A stretch of 64,000 bases of DNA from contig NZ_OESG01000014.1 in assembly GCF_900240945.1 (NCBI RefSeq), positions 1,966,015 to 2,030,014 on the forward strand, in the 5' to 3' direction. Positions 24,183 to 24,680 of this stretch are shown piece after piece. The notes below the pieces were generated by a model. That model ran no database searches. It worked only from the letters and a program-made list of their open reading frames with translations, and had not been told where the DNA came from. Both the position numbers and the translations under genes were made by a program. The stretch is from Mycobacterium sp. 3519A (GTDB taxonomy: Bacteria; Actinomycetota; Actinomycetes; Mycobacteriales; Mycobacteriaceae). Each line of letters starts with the position of its first letter. Position 1 is the stretch's first letter.

Positions 24183-24607
24183 CCGCCGTCGTGCTGCGCG
24201 TCGAACTCACCGACCACCCCATCGAACTGTCGGACTACGAAGCGTTGGTGGCGCACGAATCTGCCGGAGCCGTCGTGGGATTCGCGGGCGTGGTGCGCGA
24301 TCACGACGGCGGACGCAACGTCACGCGGTTGGAGTACTCGGCACACCCGACGGCGCAACAGACCCTCGAGGAGGTGGCCGCCGAGATCGCGGCCGACGCC
24401 ACCGGCGTGCGCGCCATCGCGGTCAGTCACCGCGTCGGCACTCTGCAGATCGGCGACGCGGCGTTGGTCGCCGCGGTCGCCGCGGACCACCGGGCAGCCG
24501 CATTCGACACCTGCGCACGACTGGTCGACACCGTCAAGGCGCGACTACCGGTGTGGAAACACCAGTTCTTCGCCGACGGCTCCGACGAGTGGGTGAACTC
24601 CGCCTGA
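24179..24607 (+). CDS. moaE: Molybdopterin synthase large subunit MoaE
   Basis: A 142-residue catalytic subunit that, with thiocarboxylated MoaD, converts cyclic pyranopterin to molybdopterin. Recognisable segments: [64 protein letters not shown] and the catalytic Lys region [23 protein letters not shown]. It starts by ATGA overlap with mog. Its final 33 bp are the left arm of a 48-bp inverted repeat whose right arm covers the 3' end of convergent rpfA. Its likely MoaD partner is encoded at 25703. Confidence 0.95.
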
Positions 24608-24680
24608 CCCGTTAGGCCGGCGGCAGGACCGGCGCCGGCCTGACGGACCAGGCGGTGTTCACCCACTCGTCGGCCCCGTC
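24575..24680. repeat. 48-bp-arm inverted duplication joining moaE and rpfA 3' ends
   Basis: The arm at 24575-24622 encodes the last MoaE residues and runs 15 nt past the stop. It is matched on the reverse strand by 24633-24680 (about 42 of 48 identical), with a 10-nt loop. On the reverse strand the right arm reads ADEWVNTAW in one frame, echoing MoaE SDEWVNSA. It is far longer than a normal terminator and must form a very stable hairpin in either transcript. Confidence 0.85.

Follow-up and report, generated by a model that had tools for sequence, protein, structure and literature searches.

In its anatomy, the arrangement found between moaE and rpfA in Mycobacterium sp. 3519A resembles template-switch (quasi-palindrome or fold-back) mutation. 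As in that process, an inverted copy lies beside its source and is absent from relatives, the order seen in Mycobacterium sp. ACS1612 being ancestral; the loop is tiny, the switch points are short homologies, and a single event accounts for both a copy and a deletion. The copy at this locus, with 143 nt, is longer than the short events known to us. A young copy is expected to be near-identical to its source, whereas the two arms here are 24% different and the differences are directed towards GC. Illumina context-specific errors share other features with the locus, namely substitutions only, a bias to G, a GG context, a hairpin and a GC-rich place, whereas 30% differences over 102 nt of consensus, as found here, is extreme for such errors. 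Intrinsic (Rho-independent) terminators also form a GC-rich stem-loop after a stop codon. In contrast to them, the stem at this locus is far too long, has no T-tract and is not conserved, and the first-pass annotation described the hairpin as far beyond a usual terminator. The affected protein resembles mycobacterial RpfA (PF06737) in its transglycosylase-like domain, its c-di-AMP riboswitch and the convergent orientation of its gene with moaE; unlike RpfA of ACS1612, it has neither the proline-rich stretch nor the C-terminal ...SYLKDLW... module in the assembly analysed here. Our analysis suggests that the fold-back copy is probably an assembly or sequencing chimaera.

The window, i.e. the whole stretch of 64,000 nt analysed in this study, belongs to assembly GCF_900240945.1 (genome 7.3 Mb), in which ten small contigs (0.9-5.5 kb) accompany four large ones. 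A total of 150 moaE loci, own locus included, were compared: 70 from 380 moaE-bearing genomes and 80 named loci from 293, the latter fetched with up to 3.5 kb per side. Some genomes are represented by two loci (e.g. L002 and L031) and a few loci are non-mycobacterial. At 145 loci, including our own, at least 300 nt were available beyond moaE, leaving 144 others for comparison; five shorter loci were left out of this count. Protein searches scored up to 8000 candidates, and statements based on them hold among the matches listed. The closest relative found was Mycobacterium sp. ACS1612 (L031), with 94.6% and 95.3% identity to the window in two aligned segments flanking the moaE-rpfA locus. ACS1612 also provided the best MoaE among the matches listed (97% amino acid identity; 411/429 nt identical), the best RpfA N-terminus among them reached 151/163, and no second strain of the species was present among the matches listed.

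Features of the moaE-rpfA locus, in window coordinates
Feature	Position	Strand	Remarks
moaE, molybdopterin synthase catalytic subunit, 142 aa, intact	24179..24607	+	PF02391, E 6.4e-35
Left arm	24480..24622	+	moaE 3' end, 4-nt spacer and part of old rpfA end; original copy
Remnant of old rpfA 3' end (...APVLPPA)	24608..24632	-	old stop 24612-24614
Loop GCAGGACCGG, 10 nt	24623..24632		
Junction A, fold-back	24632-24635		CGC pairs with GCG
Right arm, inverted copy of moaE 3' end	24633..24775	-	34/143 differences, no indels
rpfA reading frame as assembled, 203 aa	24659..25270	-	
Junction B	24772..24775		GCGG common to inverted moaE copy and rpfA; rpfA resumes here
c-di-AMP (ydaO) riboswitch upstream of rpfA, intact	25280..25454	-	RF00379, 70.9 bits, model 1-134/134

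ACS1612 has the same gene order and a full-length RpfA (439 aa), with 4 nt between the stops of moaE and rpfA. The window is arranged likewise as far as 24632-24635, and the 28 nt located 3' of the moaE stop are old rpfA end, one base off ACS1612. The fold-back junction lies inside a GCCGG-N8-CCGGC hairpin that is already present in ACS1612. From there 797 nt of rpfA (L031 3958-4754; 77% GC, proline-rich) are replaced by the inverted moaE copy, after which rpfA resumes at GCGGAGCCGACAG. The first-pass annotation had correctly recognised the moaE arm as the original and the inverted copy as covering the present end of the rpfA frame. Its further suggestion that rpfA had lost its 3' end is true of the normal C-terminal part, but the last codons and the old stop are still there, no longer within the frame that rpfA now uses; the missing part is the 797 nt upstream of them. 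The description of the right arm as an antisense copy of moaE has to be reversed for rpfA, which on the minus strand reads it in the moaE sense direction, one frame off. The right arm is antisense to moaE on the plus strand only.

Analysis of the inverted repeat confirmed the match of 42 out of 48 positions reported earlier for 24575-24622 and 24633-24680; the repeat is present, but its size had been underestimated, as the moaE-derived arms are 143 nt long. These arms are identical at 109/143 positions and are separated by the 10-nt loop. An ungapped repeat search extended the match to 154 nt at 75%, the outermost bases being rpfA and the moaE-derived part again 143 nt, and BLAST against the own genome returned the arm pair with the same end points (E = 2.8e-23). 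The inverted repeat is far beyond chance. RNA folding of 24560-24700 (141 nt) gave -106.9 kcal/mol (z = -11.3), and none of 200 shuffles was as good; the 321-nt RNAs of the two strands folded at -212 and -235 kcal/mol (z about -11). In the 464 kb of the same contig that were scanned, it was the sole palindrome scoring above 20 (41; next 20). None of the 144 other loci that extended 300 nt or more beyond moaE had a comparable repeat (own score 113; next 31), and a wider search of up to 1600 nt found it at one of 148 loci, our own (score 102; next 38). No terminator-like site with a T-tract was found in 24000-25400 by a scan for loops of 3-8, and Rfam at gathering scores gave no match at the hairpin, the riboswitch being the only match within 24000-26000.

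In RpfA as assembled the N-terminal region and the Rpf domain are intact (PF06737, residues 38-114, E 5e-35). The right arm encodes the last 38 amino acids, in a frame that moaE does not use, up to the stop 24659-24661. A search for moaE-derived tails in RpfA, using four motifs in 240 proteins, found none, and no Pfam match was obtained for the minus-strand frame that connects the right arm with the old rpfA stop.

Comparison with other loci revealed where the right arm comes from. The left arm and the orthologues of ACS1612 and OAS707 are colinear. When the 34 differences between the arms are assigned by comparison with ACS1612, 31 belong to the right arm and one to the left, two being undecided. 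The right arm is closest to the window's own moaE: 67 of 95 distal positions agree, compared with 64 for L052 and 63 for ACS1612, and none of the 149 other loci is closer. In a search of the own genome, moaE gave the sole good match; 41 others had E of 0.006 or above. The skipped rpfA stretch was also rejected as a source, with scores of 19 and 27 against maxima of 31 and 35 in 200 shuffles. Where the window and ACS1612 together differ from OAS707, the right arm shares the window and ACS1612 state at 8/11 positions, has the opposite state at one and neither at two; the right arm is therefore younger than the OAS707 split. At 24613 it has the ACS1612 base and not that of the left arm. Of the 34 right-arm bases that differ, six occur in more than 20% of the 80 other loci.

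The rate and the spectrum of these differences are abnormal. Polarisation gave 1169 changes at 46187 polarisable sites (2.5%) in the window lineage since ACS1612, so that the 24% difference between the arms is about nine to ten times the lineage rate. Five nearby genes differ from ACS1612 at 8-17% of their third codon positions, both lineages taken together. The maximum number of window-lineage changes per 143 nt was 23 among 45,132 overlapping stretches. Natural pairwise divergence as high as that of the arms was found once in the window, at 2365-2507, which is the most diverged fully aligned 143-nt stretch compared with ACS1612 (37 differences, both lineages counted); its neighbours 2215-2357 (27) and 2527-2669 (31) are likewise high. 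The right arm shows 19 AT>GC and 4 GC>AT changes, compared with 242 and 548 in the lineage (p 6e-7). Changes to G make up 20/34 in the right arm and 293/1169 in the lineage (p 7e-5), and transitions 12/34 and 627/1169 (p 0.04), respectively. GG precedes the changed site, in either reading direction, in 13 of the 34 cases against 7.5 expected with base identity fixed (p 0.002), or 7 (p 0.012) and 7 (p 0.086) by direction; these contexts, first six and then four, were tested with the spectrum already known. The differences are concentrated away from the loop, with 4 in the 41 positions next to it and 30 in the 102 distal positions. The increase in GC affects all three moaE codon positions, which does not support selection on codon usage in the rpfA frame.

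A contig end within 1 kb of moaE was found on the rpfA side in 15 of the 80 named loci and on the other side in one (p 3e-4); in the full locus set, contigs ended on the rpfA side at 21 of 150 loci. Among the 120 RpfA matches listed, in a search that favours short proteins, at least 30 were labelled partial. Two of the ten small contigs of the window's assembly were inspected for similar chimaeras and showed none. The rpfA side of moaE is a recurrent assembly breakpoint in mycobacterial and related loci, and the skipped stretch consequently lies where other assemblies often stop.

A technical origin is favoured because of the rate and reversed spectrum of the differences, the lack of indels, the GG context, the breakpoint, the 77% GC of the skipped part, the ten small contigs of the assembly and the privacy of the repeat among the loci examined. 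The anatomy, the junctions, this privacy, the abnormal differences and the breakpoint are observations; the technical cause and the direction of copying are inferred. DNA synthesis proceeding from moaE into rpfA would have reversed at the small hairpin in the end of rpfA and then run back over 143 nt of moaE; the 4-base match would have joined the product to rpfA again about 800 nt further on, so that the proline-coding part, with its very high GC content, was skipped. All this would have taken place outside the cell, during library preparation and assembly, the product being a chimaera or the result of gap closing with poor base calls in its second arm. In the living strain, rpfA would then be longer and of the ordinary kind. 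Of the features of the right arm, the 20/34 changes to G, the AT>GC excess and the GG context fit errors, and the result of the phasing test and the clean stretch at the loop (below) do not. PMC3622629 reports Illumina errors in the contexts GGT, CGGG and GGC as well as following inverted repeats, and PMC3334598 describes errors preceded by G as well as regions of accumulated wrong calls. Nanopore miscalls at inverted duplicates, as described in PMC7229812, include missed bases, and this cause is disfavoured because the right arm has no indels.

Several points speak against a technical chimaera. The chimaeric molecules must also join rpfA at GCGG, and 30% wrong bases over 102 nt would have to enter a consensus in spite of the resistance of ordinary assemblers to such errors; the whole would be an odd product. 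The errors do not just track one read end in the direction of the G bias, because the 41 nt at the loop are nearly clean. The neighbour-base test for phasing-type miscalls was negative, the new base equalling its 5' neighbour in 8/34 cases (p 0.99) and its 3' neighbour in 11/34 (p 0.22). In addition, the GG enrichment comes from contexts tested post hoc, divergence of this size occurs naturally once in the window (2365-2507), and six right-arm bases recur at other loci. The first-pass annotation had correctly named an assembly artefact as the outcome that would overturn its reading. If the origin is technical, the locus serves as a warning: many mycobacterial assemblies break on the rpfA side of moaE, and database entries of RpfA with truncated or odd tails should be backed by reads before they are given a biological meaning.

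The main competing explanation is a fold-back template switch that took place in vivo in the window lineage and was followed by abnormally fast change of the right arm; we consider it possible and retain it tentatively. At the rpfA hairpin the nascent strand would have primed synthesis on itself, with the moaE end as template; rejoining at GCGG would have deleted 797 nt and left RpfA as a short enzyme with a new tail. The short-homology junctions (CGC/GCG in the GCCGG/CCGGC hairpin, and GCGG) fit the switch model of PMC8794818. The derivation of the copy from the window lineage (67/95 distal positions; 8/11 shared states) and the intact Rpf domain and riboswitch are also in agreement with such an event. 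The first-pass annotation, which had listed a recombination relic among its options, came close in kind, as fold-back copying at short homologies is of this type, but the rate and spectrum are unlike those of a natural relic. About nine times the lineage rate, a reversed spectrum and the absence of indels all stand against a copy made in the cell, and codon usage in the rpfA frame offers no explanation. Perhaps a near-perfect 296-bp palindrome was unstable and badly pairing variants survived. Palindrome instability is expected to favour changes near the centre; contrary to this expectation, the centre is the best conserved part (4/41 against 30/102). That a real fold-back gave RpfA a new tail, read from the moaE sense strand in a foreign frame, and that the copy was then remodelled at about ten times the rate of the lineage, in the direction of G on one strand only, appears unlikely to us. 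To our knowledge, no described process explains this pattern of change in one arm. If the remodelling were real, an unknown mutational or selective process would act on one arm of a bacterial palindrome, and a long fold-back copy would have made a new protein end in a bacterium.

An older fold-back allele, decayed in an unsampled sister lineage and imported by recombination, is improbable. It would allow more time for differences to accumulate, and the agreement of base 24613 with ACS1612 against the left arm is in its favour, but the right arm is younger than the OAS707 split; even an age equal to that split would yield roughly 1.5-2-fold too few changes, judging from 41/143 third-position differences to OAS707, and the GC-directed spectrum is left unexplained. 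A bidirectional terminator or an RNase III substrate between the convergent genes, both proposed in the first-pass annotation, is very improbable: the very strong folding of both strands is all that speaks for either function, and the hairpin is private to one assembly, without a T-tract or an Rfam match, and pairs are lost at 30/102 distal positions, with no sign of selection to keep it.

Two further observations concern the 3' part of the convergent gene at other loci. At L012, L015-L017, L019, L020, L024, L026 and L028-L030 the convergent gene has a different 3' end; a sequence like TCAGCCGTTGATGACGA is located soon 3' of moaE, and the YLK-W motif is absent from the stretch searched. The only match to the lost rpfA part at another place in the genome was a paralogous module (E 3e-8). 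It belongs to a small protein (L119, G000:C12:275431-275736) with a signal-like N-terminus and an RpfA C-terminal module (...SYLRDLWHAYQTQEITGRDALL...) that is 53% identical to the part missing at rpfA. Judging from this sequence, the RpfA C-terminal module seems to exist without the Rpf domain.
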